Assembly (NCBI GenBank): GCA_014859645.1
Contig: JACUTV010000015.1
Span: 1-34,557, forward strand
Length of the DNA stretch: 34,557 nucleotides
Reading direction: 5' to 3'
DNA from: Campylobacterales bacterium
GTDB lineage: Bacteria; Campylobacterota; Campylobacteria; Campylobacterales; Campylobacteraceae
The notes under the pieces were generated by a model, which saw only the letters and a list, made by a program, of their open reading frames with translations, ran no database searches and had not been told where the DNA came from. Every line of letters starts with the position of its first letter. Position 1 is the stretch's first letter. Of this stretch, positions 5,575 to 32,812 are shown one piece after another. A program made the translations under genes and the position numbers.

Positions 5575-6287
5575 TGCAACAAACAAGCCTGTGGCAGTTA
5601 ATTAGAGAAGATTTTTCCATGCCACTCAAAAACGACCCTGCCATTCGTTCGCGCGTGGAGCTTATCTTTAACTACCCTGGTGTGTGGGCGCTGGTAAATT
5701 ACCGAGTTGCCCATGCTTTACATGTAAGGGGATTTCGACGTTTTGCGCGGGTGATTATGGGGATTACACAGATGATTACGGGGGTGGATTTACATCCTGG
5801 TGCCACGGTAGGAAGACGTGTGTTTCTTGACCACGCCGTGGGGATTGTGGTAGGCGAAACAGCGGTGATTGGTAATGATGTGCTCATTTATCAAGGGGTT
5901 ACGCTTGGAGGCGTGAGCCTTGAACGAGACACTAAGCGCCACCCGACTATCTTAGATGGCGCGGTGATTGGTTCGGGGGCAAAAGTCCTTGGCAACATTA
6001 CCGTGGGAAGAAATTGCCGTATTGGGTCAAACTCCGTCGTAGTCAGAGATGTGCCTGATGACTCCACTGCCGTGGGCATTCCTGCCCGCGTGATTGACAA
6101 AGGGCGCGACAAAAACCCTATGGCGCACAATAAAATCCCCGACATTAACAAAGAGCTTTTTGCTTACTTGGTCAAGCGCGTGGCACTCTTGGAAGAGGCA
6201 ATCGTCAAAGATAACAAAGAGCTTCTTGCTAAAGATAAAGAATTGGATGAAATTTATCAATCTTTTATAAAAACTATCAAAGATTAG
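5571..6287 (+). CDS. cysE: Serine O-acetyltransferase CysE with C-terminal helical tail
   Basis: CysE acetylates serine to O-acetylserine, the acceptor for sulfide in cysteine synthesis. The left-handed beta-helix hexapeptide region spans about residues 65-170, with GVDLHPGATVGRRVFLDHA, VVGETAVIGNDVLIYQGVTL and VGIPARVI; the catalytic His/Asp pair is in FLDHA. At 238 residues it is longer than the Campylobacter form I recall (about 212). The extra part is a charged, heptad-like tail from about residue 180 (LVKRVALLEEAIVKDNKELL). ATG 5571 overlaps the speA stop, and GAGGGAG precedes it. A TTACATGTAA palindrome (5718-5727) encodes Leu-His-Val-Arg inside the N-terminal helical domain. Confidence 0.94.
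   Translation: MMQQTSLWQLIREDFSMPLKNDPAIRSRVELIFNYPGVWALVNYRVAHALHVRGFRRFARVIMGITQMITGVDLHPGATVGRRVFLDHAVGIVVGETAVIGNDVLIYQGVTLGGVSLERDTKRHPTILDGAVIGSGAKVLGNITVGRNCRIGSNSVVVRDVPDDSTAVGIPARVIDKGRDKNPMAHNKIPDINKELFAYLVKRVALLEEAIVKDNKELLAKDKELDEIYQSFIKTIKD
5718..5727. repeat. TTACATGTAA palindrome in cysE
   Basis: A perfect 10-base palindrome lies inside the cysE frame and reads Leu-His-Val-Arg together with the next two bases. It is one of 18 TACATGTA copies in this window. Confidence 0.8.
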
Positions 6288-6299
6288 TAACTGTTTTGC

Positions 6300-6305
6300 T
6301 ATAAT
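6300..6305 (+). promoter_or_regulatory. -10 element of the aspB promoter
   Basis: TATAAT stands in the context TTTTGCTATAAT, about 30 bases before the aspB ATG. The same TTTGCTATAAT-like context precedes several other genes here, so it is probably the house sigma-70 motif. No clear -35 box is seen, which is usual for Campylobacterota promoters. Confidence 0.75.
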
Positions 6306-6314
6306 TCCAAAATT

Positions 6315-6324
6315 TTACATGTAA
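6315..6324. repeat. TTACATGTAA palindrome in the aspB leader
   Basis: This perfect palindrome sits in the presumed 5' untranslated region, just after the expected transcription start. It runs directly into the aspB ribosome site (AAAGGGA at about 6323-6329). It could affect translation or bind a protein, but copies inside genes argue against a purely regulatory role. Confidence 0.75.
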
Positions 6325-6334
6325 AGGGAAGACC

Positions 6335-7504
6335 ATGCTTTCACAACGTATTCAGGTACTATCTGAATCACTTACTATGGCCATCACCGCGCAAGCTAGA
6401 GAGCTAAAAGCGGCGGGCGAAGATGTGCTTAGTTTTTCTGCGGGTGAGCCCGATTTTGACACACCAAAAGTGTGCCAAGAAGCGGCGATTAAGGCGATTC
6501 AAAGCGGTTTTTCCAAATACACAGCAGTTCCTGGTGCTCCTGAGGTGCTTGAAGCGGTGTGTGTTAAGCTAAAGCGAGACCACGGACTTGAGTATAAACC
6601 TAACCAAATCCTTACCAACGTTGGGGCAAAACACTCTTTGTTTAACTTGTTTCAAGCCATTTTAGACGAAGGGGATGAAGTCATTATCCCTGCACCTTAT
6701 TGGGTAACGTACCCAGAAATCGTCCTTTACAGCGGTGGCAAACCTGTGATTTTAGAGACGGACGAACAAAGTGGATTTAAAATCACCCCTGCTCAGCTTC
6801 AGGGGGCTATTACATCCAAAACCAAAGCCTTGATTTTAAACACCCCTTCTAATCCTACAGGTGCCGTGTATTCACGCAGTGAACTCGAAGCACTTGGCGA
6901 AGTATTAAAAGGCACCAAGATTTTAGTAGCCTCCGACGAGATGTATGAAAAGCTAGTTTTTGGCAAACCTTTTACAGCAGTAGCCTCAGTGAGTCAAGAT
7001 TTGTTTGAACGCACTGTGACCATTAACGGTCTTAGCAAGTGTGCAGCGATGCCAGGATGGCGTTTTGGTTATACTGCATGCTCTATTAAAGAGCTTAACG
7101 ATGCCATGAAAAACCTTCAAAGCCAAAGCACTTCCAATATTTGTTCACTGGTGCAAAAAGCGGCTATCCCTGCCCTTTTGGGTCAAGCGGATGAAGATAT
7201 TGCTATGATGAAAAAGGCTTTTGAAAAACGCAGAAATATGGCAGTAGCTCTTTTTAATGCCATTCCTGGCCTTTCAGTAATGAGTCCTGATGGTGCCTTC
7301 TATCTTTACATTAACACCAAAGAAGTTGAACCTGATTCTATGAAGTTTTGTAAAGAGCTTTTGGCGGAAACAAAGGTAGCTACGGTTCCAGGAGCAGGTT
7401 TTGGCTGTGATGGGTATTTTCGTTTTTCGTTTGCGACCGATGAAGTGAGTATTGAAAAAGGGATTGCAAGAATCGCAACCTTCGTAAAGAACTACAAAAA
7501 ATAA
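6335..7504 (+). CDS. aspB: Class I aminotransferase, aspartate aminotransferase AspB
   Basis: This PLP enzyme transfers the amino group between aspartate and 2-oxoglutarate. The 389 residues and motifs match the AspC/AspB type Ib family: SAGEPDFDTP near the N-terminus, YWVTYPEIV, NTPSNPTGAVYS, SDEMYEKLVF, and the PLP lysine K235 in GLSKCAAMPGWRFGY. The second arginine motif appears in FRFSFATDEVSIEKGI. It follows cysE by 47 bases with its own -10 box and an AAAGGGA ribosome site, and it ends in a strong terminator, so it can be transcribed alone. A substrate range including prephenate or other keto acids cannot be excluded. Confidence 0.94.
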   Translation: MLSQRIQVLSESLTMAITAQARELKAAGEDVLSFSAGEPDFDTPKVCQEAAIKAIQSGFSKYTAVPGAPEVLEAVCVKLKRDHGLEYKPNQILTNVGAKHSLFNLFQAILDEGDEVIIPAPYWVTYPEIVLYSGGKPVILETDEQSGFKITPAQLQGAITSKTKALILNTPSNPTGAVYSRSELEALGEVLKGTKILVASDEMYEKLVFGKPFTAVASVSQDLFERTVTINGLSKCAAMPGWRFGYTACSIKELNDAMKNLQSQSTSNICSLVQKAAIPALLGQADEDIAMMKKAFEKRRNMAVALFNAIPGLSVMSPDGAFYLYINTKEVEPDSMKFCKELLAETKVATVPGAGFGCDGYFRFSFATDEVSIEKGIARIATFVKNYKK

Positions 7505-21811: not shown

Positions 21812-22494
21812 GAAACACTCACCGTCGCGGCTTTGCTAAAAATAGCTTGGGCTTGAGGCGTTGGGCCATCGTTGTCATTTACAACCAGTGGTGGCAAAAT
21901 CTCACACAAGCTTTTAGAGGAGCGCTTTGCTTCTAAGAGCACCAAAGAAGCGGATTTTGACGCTTTTGGGTACACGCATTGTAACGTAGTCAAGGTAAGA
22001 TGCGCGTCGTGAAGGTGCTGCATAATTGCTCCTAATTGTTTTGCATCATAGCAAAATAGCAGTTTGCCGTGGGGTTTTAGCACCCGTTTGACGTGGGCTA
22101 AAAAATCACCCAAGGGCAAATGGGTGTTGTAACGGCTTGTGTGCACATGCAGGTCTTGGCTTTTTTGGGTGCCATCATGGTAAAAGGGTGGATTGCTGAT
22201 GATAACATCCATGGCTTGATGCCACGAGAGGGAGAGAAAATCCCCCTCTTCCACGCGCAATTCAAGGGCGTTTTCTTGCGCATTTTGCGCCGTCAATGCC
22301 ACATTTTGCGCTTGAATATCGATGGCGTGCATAGTGCATTTAGGGACATCGCGCTTGATGAGCAGCCCTAACACTCCGCACCCACACCCCACATCCAACA
22401 CGTCGCCGCTACATCCTTGGCGCAAGATGAAATCGTACAGCATCAAGGTGTCGCTGTTGTAGCGGTAGCCGTTGCTAGGTTGCAGTAAACGCAC
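21805..22494 (-). CDS. N6-adenine methyltransferase, TrmN6-like
   Basis: A class I SAM-dependent methyltransferase. The SAM loop VLDVGCGCGVLGLL is at residues 32-45, the acidic strand end at AIDI (57-60), and the catalytic N6-adenine motif NPPF at 101-104. The N-terminal NGYRYNSDTLMLYDFI is typical of the tRNA1(Val) A37 methyltransferase group (YfiC/TrmN6). It starts with GTG in a TAGTG overlap with the coiled-coil gene. Length is 229 residues. The tRNA target is inferred from the family and not shown by the sequence. Confidence 0.85.
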   Translation of the reverse strand: MRLLQPSNGYRYNSDTLMLYDFILRQGCSGDVLDVGCGCGVLGLLIKRDVPKCTMHAIDIQAQNVALTAQNAQENALELRVEEGDFLSLSWHQAMDVIISNPPFYHDGTQKSQDLHVHTSRYNTHLPLGDFLAHVKRVLKPHGKLLFCYDAKQLGAIMQHLHDAHLTLTTLQCVYPKASKSASLVLLEAKRSSKSLCEILPPLVVNDNDGPTPQAQAIFSKAATVSVSC

Positions 22495-24698
22495 TAGCGG
22501 TACACTCGAATCACAAACCCGCGTTTGTTGGGCACCTCGACCAAATCCGAAGAGTAGCTCACCCTTGCAAGCCCATCAAAATAAGCTTCTATCAGTTTCC
22601 CACCCGTCGCGGCGCGCTCTTTTCCAAGCCCTAAGTTAGAAAGACGCGTGAGGCGTTTGATTTCCTCTTTAGGAATGCCCAAGCGCGTCTCTTGCTCTAC
22701 GCGTTTTAGCGTGGCAAACCCGCCATCATCGACAATGGGAAGCACTTCAAAAAAATGGGAAGCTTCATACTCTTTTAAAAATTCTTCCACGCGCCCTTTA
22801 CATGTAAGGGAGGCCTCATTGGTACCACTTTCCATGTCATCGCATGCAATTGACGCCAAAAGTTCGGGTTTTTTAAGCACAGCGTCTTTAAGGAGGGCTT
22901 GACTCTCCTTTTGTTCTTGCATCAACGCCACGTTGAGTTGCTCGATTTTAGCCTCATAAGCCCCTTCGCGTGCCTTGATTTCTTGTTGCAACACTTCAAA
23001 CTCTTCTTTGAGTGCTAAGAGTTGTTTGTCTTGTGTTTGTTTTAGGCTGCCGTTTTCTTTTTGAAGCTTTTCGTGGGTTTCTTCAAGGGTTTTGAGGGTG
23101 TTTTTTAACCCTCCCATTTGCGCTTCTAGCGCAGCAATTTGCTGACGGTGTTTGGCTTCAAGGGCATCGATATGGGTTGTGGCCTTGGTGATAATCAGGC
23201 TACGCTCTTGCTCTAGGGCGATGATTTTTTCATTGAGGGTGTGGTAATTTTTTGCATGCTTGTCTTCGTTGCTTGCGAGGGCTTGGGTGATATTTCCCCC
23301 TGTTTTTTGCAACGACGCCTCTAGTGTTGCAATCTTTACATGTAAGGTTTTTTCCACGTTTGCTGCTTCTTCTAGGGCTTTGACCTGAGTTGCGAGTTGT
23401 TGTTTTAGCTCATCAATGTACGCATTTTCTCTCTCTTCGCTGTGCAAACTTTGAGATTTGATTTCTTCAAGGGCTTTGGCATACGCTTTGTCTTTTTGGG
23501 CAACCCGCTCTTGGGCGATGCGTTCAATCTCTTTGATGTTATCCGCAAGCTCTTTTTTTTGTGTTTCGAGGGTGCTAATTTGCGTTTGCACAACTGCTAG
23601 CGCCTCTTTGTGTCCTTCTTGAAGTTTTTCGCGGGCCAAGCGTTCTTGTTGTACTTTGCCTTCAAGTTCAATGGCTTGCGTGCGCAAGGTGCTGAGGGTT
23701 TGTTCATGCGCACTCATGAGCGCATTGACTTCACTGTTTTTTTGCGTAATTTCTTGATAATGGGCTTGTTTTAGCGCGCTCATTTCTTGCAATACTTTTT
23801 GCACTGCTTCGTTGTATTTTCGCTCTTGGGCTAAAATCTCACGGGTGTGATTTGTGAGAATCACGTTTTGTTCCGCCTCTTTTTCGCGTAGCATGTTGCG
23901 CAGTTGGTCGGTGTCATTTTTGCTCTCGCGCAAGGCTTTTTCTTTTTCATCCAGCAACGCACTCATTTTATCTTGGAGCGCTTTGTGCTGCTCCAAAAGA
24001 TAACGGTTTTTTTCTGCCAAGGTGGAGTTGCTGATACGTTGTTCTTTGGTGGCGACACTGATTTCTTTATCTGTTTGCATAGACTGTTCGCGCAACTCTT
24101 TTTGCAGTTCATACAAGGTGTTTTCCAAGCCTACAATCTTGGTTTCATACTCCCGTGAAGCGCGCATAGACTCTTGTTGTAAGTCGTTGATGCGGCGTGT
24201 GAGGTCGTTGATGTTTTGGTAGTGCTGTTGCTCGGCTTGGTTCATGGTTTCTAGGTTTTGCGTTTGGAGTTTTTGACGCTCTTTATCAAGGGCTTTTTTT
24301 TCATCATTTAGCCTGATGGCAAGTTCCCAGTTTTTATTTGCCAAATCCAAATTGTCTTGAAATAAAAAGCGGTTTTTTTGGCGCAAGGTAAGCACTTGTG
24401 CTTTTAATTCCTCTGAAGTTCCTTCGATGGGCGTTTCTACTTCCACGGCAAGCTCTTTGGTTTGCGAAGGCACAACACCTAAAGAGGCAATGGCCTGAAC
24501 GTCGTTTTTATGAATGTATTCTCGCTGAATATCCCCCGGCAAATCCTCAAAGCGCGTGAGCGTTTGAGGCTTCTGCTTGGCAACCGATTCGCCAGGAGAA
24601 ATACTGTACATGTAAACCGCTCCTACTCCAAAAACAAACAACCCGCCCAATGCCATACTTAAGGCAATAACAGGCAAAGAACGCCCTTTATGCTCCAT
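22494..24698 (-). CDS. Membrane-anchored long coiled-coil protein with conserved-looking C-terminal domain, unknown
   Basis: The 734-residue protein has one membrane segment (about residues 8-32). A very long heptad-rich coiled coil follows from about 90 to 610 (for example LTRRINDLQQESMRAS, LAEKNRYLLEQHKALQDKM). A distinct globular end covers about residues 614-734. That end carries two cysteines, C619 and C633, and motifs such as FFEVLPIVDDGGF, LGLGKERAATGGKLI and KRGFVIRVY, which loosely recall an OmpA-like topology; that comparison is weak. With the anchor at the N-terminus the rod would project into the periplasm and could span toward the outer membrane. It starts three bases after the oxidoreductase stop. 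Three palindromes lie in it; one writes C633. Confidence 0.8.
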   Translation of the reverse strand: MEHKGRSLPVIALSMALGGLFVFGVGAVYMYSISPGESVAKQKPQTLTRFEDLPGDIQREYIHKNDVQAIASLGVVPSQTKELAVEVETPIEGTSEELKAQVLTLRQKNRFLFQDNLDLANKNWELAIRLNDEKKALDKERQKLQTQNLETMNQAEQQHYQNINDLTRRINDLQQESMRASREYETKIVGLENTLYELQKELREQSMQTDKEISVATKEQRISNSTLAEKNRYLLEQHKALQDKMSALLDEKEKALRESKNDTDQLRNMLREKEAEQNVILTNHTREILAQERKYNEAVQKVLQEMSALKQAHYQEITQKNSEVNALMSAHEQTLSTLRTQAIELEGKVQQERLAREKLQEGHKEALAVVQTQISTLETQKKELADNIKEIERIAQERVAQKDKAYAKALEEIKSQSLHSEERENAYIDELKQQLATQVKALEEAANVEKTLHVKIATLEASLQKTGGNITQALASNEDKHAKNYHTLNEKIIALEQERSLIITKATTHIDALEAKHRQQIAALEAQMGGLKNTLKTLEETHEKLQKENGSLKQTQDKQLLALKEEFEVLQQEIKAREGAYEAKIEQLNVALMQEQKESQALLKDAVLKKPELLASIACDDMESGTNEASLTCKGRVEEFLKEYEASHFFEVLPIVDDGGFATLKRVEQETRLGIPKEEIKRLTRLSNLGLGKERAATGGKLIEAYFDGLARVSYSSDLVEVPNKRGFVIRVYR
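22798..22807. repeat. TTACATGTAA palindrome in the coiled-coil gene (C-terminal domain)
   Basis: A perfect 10-base copy read as Leu-Thr-Cys-Lys. It encodes one of the two cysteines of the C-terminal domain. Confidence 0.8.
23336..23345. repeat. TTACATGTAA palindrome in the coiled-coil gene (rod)
   Basis: A perfect 10-base copy read as Leu-His-Val-Lys within the heptad region. A third, partial copy (TACATGTA, 24607-24614) lies in the membrane segment. Confidence 0.8.
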
Positions 24699-25737: not shown

Positions 25738-26973
25738 GTGGATGCATTCTTGCAAAAGGCCAAATCTTTAACCTCTTTCTTGGCCACCATGGAGCCGCAA
25801 CAAAAAAATACCCTTCTTTTAGCCATGGCAGACGCCCTTGAAGCCCACCATGAAGCTATCTTGGAAGCCAATGCCAAAGACATTGATGAGGGGATAAAAA
25901 ATGCCCTCAGTGAGGCCTTGATTGACCGTCTTAAACTCACTCCCAAGCGCATCCAAGCGATGGCCCAAGCGGTGCGCGAAATTGCCGCGCTCAAAGAGCC
26001 TGTGGGGAGAGTATTGGAAGGCTGGGTGGTGCCTAGCGGGCTTCGTATCGAAAAAGTGAGTATTCCTATTGGCGTCGTGGCCATCATCTATGAAAGCCGC
26101 CCTAACGTTACGAGTGACACCGCCGCCTTGTGCTTCAAAAGTGGCAATATTTGTGTCCTCAAAGGGGGTAAAGAAGCCACCCATAGTAACCGTGCTATTG
26201 CTTTGGTACTGCAAGAGACCCTTAGGGTGCACGGCGTGGATCCAGCGTGTATTTCGTTGCTTCCTGATGAGACCCGCGAAGGGGTTGCCGCGCTCATTCG
26301 CCAAGACGCTTATGTGGACTTGATTATTCCCAGAGGCGGAGAAGGATTGATTCGTTTTGTTTCTCAAAACGCCACGGTTCCTGTGGTGAAACATGACAAG
26401 GGCGTGTGCCACACTTACGTGGATAAAGAAGCCAATCTTGACCAAGCCATGGAAATCGTCCTTAACGCCAAATGCCAGCGTCCCAGCGCGTGCAATGCTC
26501 TTGAAACCTTGCTCGTGCATAAAGAGATTGCTTCGGACTTCATACCACGTATCACCGCCGCGCTCATCCAAACAGGGGCGCAGGTACGAGGATGTGCACA
26601 GACGCAAGAATATATACATGTAGACCTTGCTACGTCTGAGGATTTTCACACCGAACACTTAAGCAACGCCCTTTCCATCAAAGTGGTCGCAGATGTTCAA
26701 GAGGCAATGAACCACATCACCACCTACGGTTCGTCCCATTCTGAAGCGATTTTGACCGAAAACTACACCACCGCAGAACGGTTTCTAAACGCCGTCGATG
26801 CCGCGTGTGTGTACGTGAACGCTTCCACGCGTTTTACCGACGGGGGCGAGTTTGGCTTTGGGGCGGAAGTGGGCATTAGCACCAATAAGCTTCACGCTAG
26901 AGGCCCCATGGGCATCAACGAGCTTACCACATACAAATACAAAGTCTACGGCAAAGGAAACGTGCGTGCGTGA
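25738..26973 (+). CDS. proA: Gamma-glutamyl phosphate reductase ProA
   Basis: ProA reduces glutamyl 5-phosphate to the semialdehyde in proline synthesis. This aldehyde-dehydrogenase-fold enzyme has 411 residues, the usual length. Catalytic C252 is in QRPSACNALETLL. IGVVAIIYESRPNVTSDTAALC and GKEATHSNRAI are diagnostic, and the end carries RGPMGINELTTYKYKVYG. GTG 25738 is preceded by AAGGAAG at good spacing. The partner ProB is not in the window. One TACATGTA copy (26615-26622) encodes Ile-His-Val-Asp. The 3' end overlaps the ABC ATPase gene by eight bases. Confidence 0.96.
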   Translation: MDAFLQKAKSLTSFLATMEPQQKNTLLLAMADALEAHHEAILEANAKDIDEGIKNALSEALIDRLKLTPKRIQAMAQAVREIAALKEPVGRVLEGWVVPSGLRIEKVSIPIGVVAIIYESRPNVTSDTAALCFKSGNICVLKGGKEATHSNRAIALVLQETLRVHGVDPACISLLPDETREGVAALIRQDAYVDLIIPRGGEGLIRFVSQNATVPVVKHDKGVCHTYVDKEANLDQAMEIVLNAKCQRPSACNALETLLVHKEIASDFIPRITAALIQTGAQVRGCAQTQEYIHVDLATSEDFHTEHLSNALSIKVVADVQEAMNHITTYGSSHSEAILTENYTTAERFLNAVDAACVYVNASTRFTDGGEFGFGAEVGISTNKLHARGPMGINELTTYKYKVYGKGNVRA

Positions 26974-27544
26974 ACCCGTGCTTAGCATCGAGGGGTTGCG
27001 CTTTGGCTACTCCCCTGAAGCCTTGCTGTATGAGGATTTTTCCCTCACCTTACATGTAGGCGAAGTCATTAGCGTTGTGGGGCCAAGTGGTTCGGGGAAA
27101 ACGACGCTGTTTGAGCTCATCACTGGCTCCTTAAAACCCCTTGGCGGAACCCTTACATGTAAGGCATTTTCCCAAATCTTTCAAGACCCCTATACCTCTT
27201 TTCACCCCACCTACACGCTCTTTGAACAAATGGCCGAAGTGGCGGATACCCAAGAACACGAACGGTTGTGCGACGCCTTGGGCCTCTCTCCTGTGCTCTT
27301 GCACCGCAAACCCCATGAGCTTAGTGGCGGGCAACTCCAGCGCGCATCGATTATTCGCGCACTGCTCATGAAGCCCAAGCTTTTGCTAGCGGATGAGCCA
27401 ACTTCGGCACTGGATAATCTCATTCAGCTTGAAGTGATGCAGCTGCTTATGGGATTGTTGGATGACATTGGGATACTTCTCATTACTCACGACGAGACGC
27501 TTGCTTCGTGGTGCAGTGATTCTATCATAAGGTTAAAATCATGA
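26966..27544 (+). CDS. Solitary ABC transporter ATP-binding protein, Opp/Nik-like
   Basis: An ABC ATPase with Walker A GPSGSGKTT, a Q-loop FQDPYTSFHP typical of oligopeptide/nickel importer ATPases, signature LSGGQLQRASIIRALL, Walker B LLLADEPTSALD and H-loop ITHDE. At 192 residues it is shorter than normal (about 220-270); the segment between Walker A and the Q-loop is compressed. GTG 26966 is chosen because AAAGGA (26953-26958) precedes it by seven bases; the frame also continues upstream inside proA. No permease or binding protein gene adjoins it. It is coupled by ATGA to the channel gene. Two TACATGTA copies (27051, 27154) lie within 110 bases. Confidence 0.87.
   Translation: MREPVLSIEGLRFGYSPEALLYEDFSLTLHVGEVISVVGPSGSGKTTLFELITGSLKPLGGTLTCKAFSQIFQDPYTSFHPTYTLFEQMAEVADTQEHERLCDALGLSPVLLHRKPHELSGGQLQRASIIRALLMKPKLLLADEPTSALDNLIQLEVMQLLMGLLDDIGILLITHDETLASWCSDSIIRLKS
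27151..27164. repeat. CCTTACATGTAAGG 14-base palindrome in the ABC ATPase gene
   Basis: A perfect 14-base copy read as Leu-Thr-Cys-Lys, in the shortened stretch between Walker A and the Q-loop. A partial copy (TACATGTA) is at 27051-27058. Confidence 0.85.
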
Positions 27545-28560
27545 AAAAATACATTGCAACTGCGCTGTGTGGCGTGCCTGTTGCGGTGATGGGTGAGGAA
27601 AATCCTCTTTTAAAACACCTTGTTACACACCCCCAAGAAGTGGAACGTGCTCTTGTGGTGGCGGGGTCTATCGGATTATTGTATGGGTTCATGGTGTTGG
27701 TGCGCCATTTGGCTTATCGGTATGCAACGCAGGTGGAAAACGAGGAGCGAAGCCAACGCTATTTTGCCATCAAAAAACTCTCCAACATCCTTTTTGTCAT
27801 CCTTTCGGTGCTCATCATTGCCCTTGTATACACTAAGAATCTTGCGCAAGGTATGGCTGTTTTTGGGGTCATTGGCGCGGGTTTGACCATTGTACTCAAA
27901 GAGTTGGTGCTGAGCATGGTTTCGTGGATGATGATGATGGCAAGTTCGTCCATTCGTCTTGGGGATCGCATTAAGATTGACAAGGATGGCAAACCCATTA
28001 TCGGGGATGTGATTGACATTTCTTTGACTAAAATCACGTTGTATGAGAATATTACGAATGATTCTATCACCGATCACAAAAAAGCGGGGCGCATTATCTT
28101 TGTTCCCAATTATTTTATGCTCACACACGATGTGTATAATTATACGCATTTGTCCATGAAAACCATCATCGACCTCGTTGAAATCAACCTTTCCTTTGAC
28201 ACCAATATCGAAAAAACAGAAGCAATTACCTTCGAAATTGTCGAATCCATCAGTGGAAGATACACCGATATGGCCAAGCGTCAGTATGATATGTTGAAAG
28301 ATAAATATACCTTACGTAATATGACAAACTATCCGAAAGTCGTTTTTTACCCAAGCTTTAAGGGTGATGGTGTCACGATGGGGATTTGGTATGTCACCCC
28401 GTATCGGGAGATTTTGCGGTTAAAAAGTGAGTTGACGAAACAAGTGATTGGACGTTTGCGCGCGGAAGAAGATATTCATCTTATGTATACGGGGGCTTCT
28501 ATGTACTTAGAAACCAGTGCCAAAAAAGAGGAACTGGTTTCTAAGCTAACGGGACACTAA
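27541..28560 (+). CDS. MscS-family mechanosensitive ion channel
   Basis: Small-conductance channels of this family open on hypo-osmotic shock. Three hydrophobic segments lie at about residues 37-55, 78-98 and 103-130. The third is the Gly/Ala-rich pore helix ([19 protein letters not shown]) followed by the beta-domain start [10 protein letters not shown], which is diagnostic. Two unusual points are the long segment after it ([19 protein letters not shown]) and [20 protein letters not shown] before the FVPN-like step. Length is 339 residues. The N-terminal stretch up to residue 18 resembles a signal sequence. It starts at an ATGA overlap with the ABC gene and its stop overlaps the stop of the converging DAHP synthase gene. 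Confidence 0.9.
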
Positions 28561-30021: not shown

Positions 30022-30765
30022 CTAGGGCCGAGAAAAGCCAAGGGAGATAAAATACTCCTTTGTGATGGCTGTGATGTCTATTTTTTCCAACCCTTGATTG
30101 AAAATGTGTGCCAAATGGCGGCCTTTTTCGTTTTTTTGAAAACAAGCATGAAGGTCTTTTTCTTCCAGTAGTTTGGAGTGAAACTGAAGCAGGTTGCCTT
30201 GGTCGGCAAAGGTACTGTCTGTGGCTAAAAAATAGGCTAAAACATCGCGGTCTATGATGGCAGCATCAATTCTTTCGGAGAGCACTTTTTTAATATTAAG
30301 CACATCACTCACGGACGCTTCCGTGCGAAGGAGGCCTTGATTTGCCATGGTATCAAACGCGTGGGTGTTTACATATCCTTGCACCGTCCCAATCGTATAA
30401 TGACCCAAATCAGCGACACTTTCCCAAGCAAGAGGTTTGTTTTTGCGTTCAACCATGCCCAAATGGCTTTTTCCCATAGAGTGAGAGAATAAACACGCAG
30501 AGTCTAACTCTAACGCGCGGTATTCTGGCAAGTAGCCGTGGTATTCCTCTGAATTTCCTGCAAGCAACAACGCTCTTCTCCATGGGTAAAAATCCATTTC
30601 AAGGGTGTATCCCATAGCAGCAAATGCCCTTTTGGCAATCGCCACAGAAAGTCCTTGTTCAGGCAACTCTTTTCCACTATAAGGTGGCCACTCCAGTGAG
30701 GTCATTTTGATGGTTTGAGCACATACTAAAGAAACGCTCAAGAGGAATAGATTAAGGAGTTTCAT
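30022..30765 (-). CDS. Periplasmic solute-binding protein, family 3, coupled to a GGDEF-EAL gene
   Basis: The signal peptide is residues 1-16 (MKLLNLFLLSVSLVCA). The mature part starts TIKMTSLEWPPYSG and continues with GLSVAIAKRAFAAMGY and the PWRRALLLA segment, typical of SBP_3 proteins that often lack transporter partners. GTVQGYVNTHAFDTM and IDAAIIDRDVLAYFL match the second lobe. Length is 247 residues. The start overlaps the GGDEF-EAL stop by ATGA, and no ABC permease is near. A role as periplasmic ligand sensor for the upstream signalling protein is therefore more likely than import, by analogy with NspS-MbaA of Vibrio; this is inference. The ligand is unknown. Confidence 0.85.
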   Translation of the reverse strand: MKLLNLFLLSVSLVCAQTIKMTSLEWPPYSGKELPEQGLSVAIAKRAFAAMGYTLEMDFYPWRRALLLAGNSEEYHGYLPEYRALELDSACLFSHSMGKSHLGMVERKNKPLAWESVADLGHYTIGTVQGYVNTHAFDTMANQGLLRTEASVSDVLNIKKVLSERIDAAIIDRDVLAYFLATDSTFADQGNLLQFHSKLLEEKDLHACFQKNEKGRHLAHIFNQGLEKIDITAITKEYFISLGFSRP

Positions 30766-32780
30766 GGGTGCCTTTTTGAGGGAAAAGCGCCTGGTTTCCC
30801 GATGTAGTACCCTTGTGCATAATCAATCCCCATGGCTTTAACTTTGGTGTAAATAGCCTCAGAGCTGATGAATTCTGCAATGGTTTCAATTCCTAGTTTT
30901 TTAGCAAAAGAGACAATGGTTTCTACGACGATTTGGGCATTTTTATCTGTGAGAATATTTTTAATCAGCGAGCCGTCGATTTTCAAAAAATCCACTTCAA
31001 GATGGATGATATTTTCAAAATTTGAATACCCGCTTCCAAAGTCGTCTATGGCAATTTTTGCTCCCATTTTCTTGACGTTTTGTGCAAACTCGCGCACCGT
31101 TTCAAAGTTGGAAATCCCTTCTTGTTCTGTGATTTCAAACACAACCCGATGCATGACGTTGTAACGCGTTTGAAGTTCCTCTAAAAAAGCATAGATGTAT
31201 TCAGACTCAATATCCCTGGTGGAGAGGTTGATAGTTACATCGAATTCAGTGTCACAAAAGGCCTCTAGTGCTTTTTGGATGATGGTTTTTGATAAGGTAT
31301 CGTACGTGCCCGTATGTTTAGAGATGGCCAAAAAATCCAAGGGATAGTAGAGTTTTCCTTCTTCATCTTGGATGCGCATCAACGCTTCGTATTTGACCAC
31401 TTTTTCTTGACGAAGGCATTGTATGGGTTGAAAATGAGGAAAAACAAGATTGTCCGTAATGGCATGTTTGATGATTTTTGTGATTTTTAAGTTGGTGCCG
31501 TATTCTTCGATGACGGGTAAATTTTTACTAAACACAACCAATTTTTGTTTAGTCTTTTTGGCGTAACCCAGTGCTGTCATCGCGGCAACCATAGGCTCAT
31601 TGGCACTGCTATCTGCCATACCAGCACTCATAGAAAGTACAAGGTGTTCATCGCCAAAACTTAGCTCTTGGTTTTCAAAATCATCTAAAAAATGTGTAAT
31701 AGTTTGTTTAAATGCTAGGGCGTTAGCAGCGTAGTTTTTGTAGCTCAAAATAGCAAACTCATCGCCACTCAACCTATAAACGCGGTAATCAAGCGGGTCG
31801 AAAAAGCGGCTCAAAAGCTCCGCGGTTGATTTTAACACATGATCGCCCGATGAAATGCCAAGGTAGTTGTTGATTTCTTTAAAGCGGTCAATATCTACGA
31901 TAGCAAGTAAAAACTGTTGCTGTGAATCTAGGTCATACAAAAGGCGTTGACGTGAGAGCAGTTGGGTTAGTCCGTCGTAATTTGCCCGCTTATTGAGGCG
32001 GTTAATGAGCGTAGCAATGTGCTTGTGAAAATAATGCATCAACTTACCAATCTCATCTTCTTCTTTATAGTAAGCGTGGTCGATGGTGAGAATTTTTTCT
32101 TCACGGAATTGTTTCATTTCTTCAAGCATTTTGTAAATAGGAGTGATGACATTTTTATTAATCTGTGTGGCAACAAACATCAAAAGAAATGCCATAACAA
32201 AGAGCGAAAGGAAAATTTGGACCCCAATACTTGAAAGAGTGGTGGTTTTGAGTGTTTTTTTAAGCTCGCTGGTATTTTCTGTGATTAATGCTTGATTAGC
32301 ACGCATTTGCTCATGGATGGGTTCAAGGGTATAAGAAAGGTTTAAAATCCCTATTTTGTTATCTTTATAGCTAAGCTCGATTGTTTTTGTTTTACATGTA
32401 TTGTTAATGCTTTTGTCGATTCTGGCCACTTCAGTGAGCGAAACGGTGTCCAATACCGAGAGCGTACAAAGCCCTTCATGAAGCATAAACTTTTGCGCTT
32501 TTTGTAAGATTGCCTCTGTGTCCACATTGTAAAGATCGTACGTTAGGATTTGGGCAATTGTTTCGATATAAAAATCTAAACTTTGTTCATACAGCTTAAG
32601 TTGAACGCTTTGGGTGTTTTGAGAGTAGTGTTGGATGTGTTCTAGAGAACTTTGTTCTACTTTTTTTTCAAGGAATTTAGTGCCAAAAAGCTGAAGAAGG
32701 ATAAGTAACGCCATCATAGAGGCGATTGCTAGGGATATGACAAAAATAAGTTTAAATTTAATAGACTCTTTGTCAAACAC
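30762..32780 (-). CDS. Membrane GGDEF-EAL cyclic-di-GMP signalling protein
   Basis: Numbering from GTG 32780 (672 residues). TM1 is about 10-33, followed by a periplasmic sensor region of about 150 residues with two cysteines, TM2 about 184-205, a HAMP-like linker, GGDEF about 260-415 and EAL about 430-660. The GGDEF signature is SGDEF (338-342), so cyclase activity is doubtful but not excluded. The EAL domain keeps EAL (465-467), the E of FEITEQ, DDFGSGYSNF, the K of FLKIDGS and the late E and Q residues, so phosphodiesterase activity is expected. GTG 32780 has GGGAG at good spacing; ATG 32801 lies at the predicted transcription start and would be leaderless. Coupled to the solute-binding gene. 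Confidence 0.92.
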   Translation of the reverse strand: MFDKESIKFKLIFVISLAIASMMALLILLQLFGTKFLEKKVEQSSLEHIQHYSQNTQSVQLKLYEQSLDFYIETIAQILTYDLYNVDTEAILQKAQKFMLHEGLCTLSVLDTVSLTEVARIDKSINNTCKTKTIELSYKDNKIGILNLSYTLEPIHEQMRANQALITENTSELKKTLKTTTLSSIGVQIFLSLFVMAFLLMFVATQINKNVITPIYKMLEEMKQFREEKILTIDHAYYKEEDEIGKLMHYFHKHIATLINRLNKRANYDGLTQLLSRQRLLYDLDSQQQFLLAIVDIDRFKEINNYLGISSGDHVLKSTAELLSRFFDPLDYRVYRLSGDEFAILSYKNYAANALAFKQTITHFLDDFENQELSFGDEHLVLSMSAGMADSSANEPMVAAMTALGYAKKTKQKLVVFSKNLPVIEEYGTNLKITKIIKHAITDNLVFPHFQPIQCLRQEKVVKYEALMRIQDEEGKLYYPLDFLAISKHTGTYDTLSKTIIQKALEAFCDTEFDVTINLSTRDIESEYIYAFLEELQTRYNVMHRVVFEITEQEGISNFETVREFAQNVKKMGAKIAIDDFGSGYSNFENIIHLEVDFLKIDGSLIKNILTDKNAQIVVETIVSFAKKLGIETIAEFISSEAIYTKVKAMGIDYAQGYYIGKPGAFPSKRHP

Positions 32781-32806
32781 AGCTTTCTCCCAAGTAAACA
32801 TGTGCG

Positions 32807-32812
32807 ATTATA
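32807..32812 (-). promoter_or_regulatory. -10 element of the GGDEF-EAL / solute-binding protein operon
   Basis: TATAAT in the minus-strand context TTGGCTATAAT. Transcription would begin near 32800, leaving a leader of about 20 bases before GTG 32780 with its GGGAG site, or none before ATG 32801. Confidence 0.65.

Follow-up and report, generated by a model that had tools for sequence, protein, structure and literature searches.

Most cyclic-di-GMP enzymes are without a known input. In some described systems, the input is linked to a periplasmic solute-binding protein (SBP). The NspS-MbaA pair of Vibrio cholerae and Sinorhizobium meliloti is encoded by overlapping SBP and GGDEF-EAL genes (PMC9993111, PMC8079147); in Vibrio parahaemolyticus, the periplasmic binding protein ScrB switches the dual GGDEF-EAL enzyme ScrC (PMC10269520); and in Salmonella, the arginine-binding periplasmic protein ArtI is needed for ligand control of the cyclic-di-GMP enzyme STM1987 (PMC8846402). 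Here we describe a comparable two-gene locus from a Campylobacterales bacterium, for which a sequence-only reading had proposed a candidate ligand-sensing pair of an SBP and a GGDEF-EAL protein. That proposal now gains support from the same adjacency in an orthologous locus and from relatives of the SBP that lie beside chemoreceptors. We consider it probable that the two genes form a unit in which the SBP docks at the receptor's periplasmic domain and thereby controls the net turnover of cyclic-di-GMP, and that the function of the pair is signalling rather than import.

The window, by which we mean the whole stretch of 34,557 nucleotides that was analysed, is an entire contig (C187) of a 2.78-Mb genome assembled in 249 contigs. 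Its minus strand carries the gene of the GGDEF-EAL receptor (30762-32780; 672 amino acids from a GTG start or 679 from an ATG at 32801) and that of a family-3-type SBP (30022-30765; 247 amino acids), with the receptor stop and the SBP start sharing the ATGA at 30762-30765; the positions, strand and overlap are as first read from the sequence. The ATG at 32801 is in frame and upstream of the GTG at 32780, but the latter is the preferable start because it is directly preceded by a Shine-Dalgarno sequence (GGGAG, 32787-32791, minus strand, 6 nucleotides upstream) and by a TATAAT (32807-32812, minus strand), a candidate -10 element of the operon promoter; given this element, the ATG would fall at about the start of transcription. 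This element was read from the sequence and lacks support from a promoter scan, in which it was not listed and whose signal was not clearly above that of shuffled sequences. The earlier suggestion of a single promoter common to both genes is thus something that we infer. The pair is flanked on one side by a rarD-like gene (from 32900, plus strand) and on the other by a class-II DAHP synthase gene, with no gene for a ScrA-like signal synthase among these neighbours. As had been noted at the outset, neither an ABC permease nor an ABC ATPase adjoins the SBP gene at the locus. The nearest ABC component is an ATPase ORF on the other strand (26852-27544), which overlaps by 4 bp with a mechanosensitive-channel gene (the two spanning 26852-28560, plus strand). 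Elsewhere in the window, a 734-residue ORF (22494-24698, minus strand) gave no hit in either Pfam or NCBIfam under the cut-offs applied.

In the receptor (minus strand throughout; residues of the membrane and periplasmic segments counted from the ATG at 32801), hydropathy places transmembrane (TM) helices at about residues 16-40 (32682-32756) and 188-213 (32163-32240). Between them lies a periplasmic region of about 143 residues, close to the 150 or so of the initial estimate. In a two-sequence AlphaFold2 model, the periplasmic domain (residues 45-187, 32241-32669; pLDDT about 75-89) runs from a long helix through a short one and four strands to a second long helix. Its Foldseek matches include WalK, the periplasmic domain of the LapD orthologue CdgS9, and CitA, and a single hit has E<0.001. 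With moderate confidence, we regard this modelled domain as PDC/LapD-like. The second TM helix leads into a HAMP-like linker (NKNVITPI ... EEDEIGKLMHYF; 31998-32162), recognized by its sequence motif and returning no Pfam match.

The cytoplasmic portion matches the Pfam GGDEF (5e-18) and EAL (9e-60) domains. The GGDEF match (31548-31985, minus strand) is a weak one, its 70 bits ranking 44th by score among the 59 GGDEF matches of the genome. Its signature is SGDEF (31755-31769, minus strand), with no RxxD inhibitory site. The sequence-only reading had called this signature degenerate; the motif is as it stated, but it is no sign of inactivity. Replacement of the first G in GGDEF motifs is, by published account, fairly common and compatible with function (PMC9993111), and since V. 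cholerae MbaA carries the same SGDEF motif, which is required in vivo (PMC8079147), that of the window receptor should not be taken as inactive. The domain looks weak for reasons other than SGDEF. In an alignment with RbdA it retains N311 and D320 and lacks the GRNR-type motif near the end of the domain (AKKTKQKL aligned to AKEKGRNRV of RbdA). We would expect it to act either as a GTP-binding regulatory domain or as a weak cyclase. The EAL phosphodiesterase domain (30792-31472, minus strand) has the full set of catalytic residues (E472, N525, E556/E559, D586, D587, K607, E643 and Q663) both in its own sequence and when aligned to RbdA and MorA, in keeping with the earlier impression that it is intact; because it is intact, phosphodiesterase activity is the likely main output of the receptor.

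The SBP begins with a signal peptide, probably cleaved after VCA at residue 16 (30718-30765, minus strand). Searched alone against Pfam, it yields nothing significant (SBP_bac_3 at E=0.14), so that PF00497 by itself misses it, and there is no match to a PotD-type family. A profile of six members, on the other hand, reaches E-values down to 2e-32 against family-3 amino-acid SBPs whose structures have been solved. The original assignment to an amino-acid-like family 3 therefore holds for the fold but not necessarily for the ligand, in that L87 (30505-30507, minus strand) occupies the position of the Arg that binds the alpha-carboxylate in family-3 SBPs. The clade to which the SBP belongs is without this carboxylate-clamp Arg, retains the amine-binding Asp (D172 in the window protein; 30250-30252, minus strand) and has a GYVN loop in common; we take the roles of the Arg and the Asp to be those seen in LAO/GlnBP-type proteins. 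As the clade lacks the carboxylate-binding Arg, a standard alpha-amino acid is an improbable ligand. A two-sequence AlphaFold2 model of the SBP reached a pLDDT of 32, too low to be of use. Gene neighbourhoods gave two hints to the ligand. That of 2-aminoethylphosphonate, from genes near the Azospirillum lipoferum copy of the SBP, was rejected because no such genes lie near the B510 copy. That of ethanolamine, from a cluster next to a homologue on a Pseudomonas plasmid, is weak, as the SBP in question (31.5%) keeps an Arg at the site.

A full-length orthologue of the receptor occurs in only one other of 397 Campylobacterota genomes, that of Sulfurospirillum sp. UBA2217, from the same order (40% identity over 667 residues, with the periplasmic region covered). 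The same genome gave the only match when a profile of the receptor N-terminus was run against the genome contigs, and a single-sequence scan of these contigs with the SBP gave no match. In UBA2217, an SBP gene lies directly downstream of the receptor gene with a 4-bp overlap, as in the window (L017/L075). Conserved adjacency had been put forward as the check on a functional pair, and the pairing is indeed kept at the sole orthologous locus found; both genes are missing from the same-genus genome and from the other relatives searched, so that adjacency could be tested in this one case only. The window and UBA2217 SBPs are about 25% identical, which indicates that the linkage to the receptor has outlasted much divergence. 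The flanking genes of the two loci differ: upstream of the UBA2217 receptor are genes for a PhnD-like SBP and a diguanylate cyclase. There, the GGEEF cyclase, the PhnD-like SBP, the GGDEF-EAL receptor and the family-3 SBP form a packed cluster (L075, 5701-10777) in which one receptor is flanked by two types of SBP.

Outside Campylobacterota, where our search covered plasmid records, the closest relatives found of the window SBP are from Salinivibrio (45%) and Azospirillum (38%), and these group with it with a clade support of 99/95; the best protein from Campylobacterota reaches 33%. That the closest relatives come from outside its own phylum suggests horizontal transfer of the SBP. In all five annotated records (three of S. 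kushneri and one each of S. proteolyticus and A. lipoferum), the SBP gene is immediately followed by one for a methyl-accepting chemotaxis protein; in a sixth, unannotated record (B510), a chemotaxis gene adjoins it by homology, and no permease stands next to any of these Salinivibrio and Azospirillum relatives. The paired chemoreceptors combine HAMP with small periplasmic domains that give weak CHASE or LapD_MoxY matches. Homology between these domains and that of the window receptor is not evident at an hhalign probability of 38%. The S. proteolyticus SBP copy is broken by stop codons in the frame read (L129, about 5953-6666), and the adjoining chemoreceptor gene is annotated as complete. 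An S. kushneri plasmid encodes consecutively an SBP, a chemoreceptor, a second SBP and a CHASE-GGDEF cyclase (L125, 5938-10479). We raise, as a tentative idea, the existence of a distinct clade of SBPs used only for signalling (marked by LEWPPYSG, GYFPEY and GYVN and by the lack of the carboxylate Arg), which would bind a ligand other than an amino acid, possibly an amine, and might have moved between receptors with different outputs, these being chemoreceptors in Salinivibrio and Azospirillum and a GGDEF-EAL enzyme in the window campylobacterium.

The genome to which the window belongs has 16 SBP_bac_3 matches. Four intact polar-amino-acid ABC loci (C53, C75, C39 and C65) contain their own SBPs, two matches are orphan SBPs adjoining diguanylate cyclase genes (C24 and C133), and most others are parts of fusions with kinases or GGDEF proteins. 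With 59 of some 2,750 genes being GGDEF genes, 3 adjacencies to a GGDEF gene among 7 stand-alone SBPs against 0.3 expected are improbable as a chance result (P about 0.004, a rough figure that includes the preselected window pair); with that pair left out, there are 2 against 0.26 expected (P about 0.03). One of the two orphans precedes a dCache-PAS-GGDEF gene split by a frameshift into ORFs of 150 and 604 amino acids (L081 on C24, 2693-5744), and the other (316 amino acids) precedes a HAMP-GGDEF diguanylate cyclase with a GGEEF motif (L088 on C133, 7-2442). A gene for an SBP-PAS-GGDEF fusion on a further contig is broken by an in-frame TGA (L080 on C48, 1936-3758). Comparable arrangements recur across the phylum, with orphan SBPs beside GGDEF-EAL genes (L119, with SGDEF, and L122, with CHASE5-PAS), diguanylate cyclase genes (L120 and L121), kinase genes and SpoIIE-type genes, and, at several loci of the Sulfurospirillum family, beside genes for a kinase and an HD-GYP-type response regulator. 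In several genomes of that family (L018, L019, L021-L023, L025, L097 and L108), a hybrid kinase, the HD-GYP-type response regulator and the orphan SBP form an apparent operon. The locus described here is an example of this recurring placement of orphan SBPs next to genes for signalling proteins.

In the mechanism that we propose, the exported SBP would capture a solute from outside the cell and, either with or without it, dock on the PDC/LapD-like periplasmic domain of a receptor dimer. The resulting movement would be relayed via the second TM helix and the HAMP-like linker, reach the SGDEF-EAL part and change the net turnover of cyclic-di-GMP, in the way that NspS acts on MbaA and ScrB on ScrC; the docking, the direction of the response and the nature of the ligand are inferred. 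The SBP could instead feed an ABC importer encoded elsewhere and sit beside the receptor for co-regulation only. Orphan SBPs can share permeases, and 33 BPD permease matches were counted in the genome. However, the four intact polar-amino-acid ABC loci each hold their own SBP, and the nearest relatives of the window SBP adjoin chemoreceptors with no permease alongside; we consider such a service to a distant importer unlikely, in line with the first judgement that import is improbable here.

About as improbable, in our estimate, is that the PDC-like domain of the receptor itself binds the ligand, with the SBP independent or accessory. Although the modelled domain does resemble sCache/PDC domains, and direct binding of small molecules is known for many of these, against this reading stand the persistence of the pairing in the orthologue despite the low identity of the SBPs, and the recurrence in the phylum of orphan SBPs beside receptor genes. 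Least credible of all, and in our view very improbable, is that the genes are chance neighbours, or that one is a passenger brought in by horizontal transfer, with no functional link. The affinity of the SBP to gamma- and alphaproteobacterial proteins, the absence of both genes from nearly all relatives and the slight difference in GC content (0.39 and 0.44 for the two genes against 0.47 for the window) would fit such an origin, yet two bacterial families share the 4-bp overlap and the gene order, although the remaining flanking genes of the loci differ.

If SBP-dependent signalling by the pair is borne out, SBP-gated control of cyclic-di-GMP would extend to Campylobacterota, a phylum in which orphan SBPs repeatedly adjoin signalling genes. 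With a soluble and readily purified binding protein as the input, the signal could be found by ligand screening, and the chemoreceptors adjoining other members of the SBP clade provide a second read-out. Among the systems compared, the likeness to NspS-MbaA that was initially pointed out holds for the layout, in which TM helix, periplasmic domain, TM helix, HAMP (in the window receptor by motif only), SGDEF and EAL follow one another without an RxxD site. It is that of an analogue rather than of a family member: NspS is a PotD-type polyamine SBP whereas the window SBP is of the family-3 type, and the nspS-type gene lies upstream of its receptor gene whereas the SBP gene lies downstream in both the window and UBA2217. 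ScrABC likewise joins a binding protein to a GGDEF-EAL enzyme, and ScrB is probably of the family-3 type; the window pair differs from it in having no ScrA-like signal synthase gene alongside. In comparison with ArtI-STM1987, the SBP and receptor genes of the window are paired, and its receptor is a GGDEF-EAL protein with a small PDC-like domain whereas STM1987 has a dCACHE_1 periplasmic domain. The plasmid-borne pairs of Salinivibrio and Azospirillum, known from annotation only, share with the window an SBP of the same clade (38-45%) and a receptor that carries a HAMP and whose periplasmic domain is small, but their output is chemotaxis and not cyclic-di-GMP. Because both the PotD-type SBP and the gene order of NspS-MbaA are lacking, we place the window pair, as judged from its sequence features, not with that system but as a rare SBP-controlled cyclic-di-GMP receptor of a broad kind already known.
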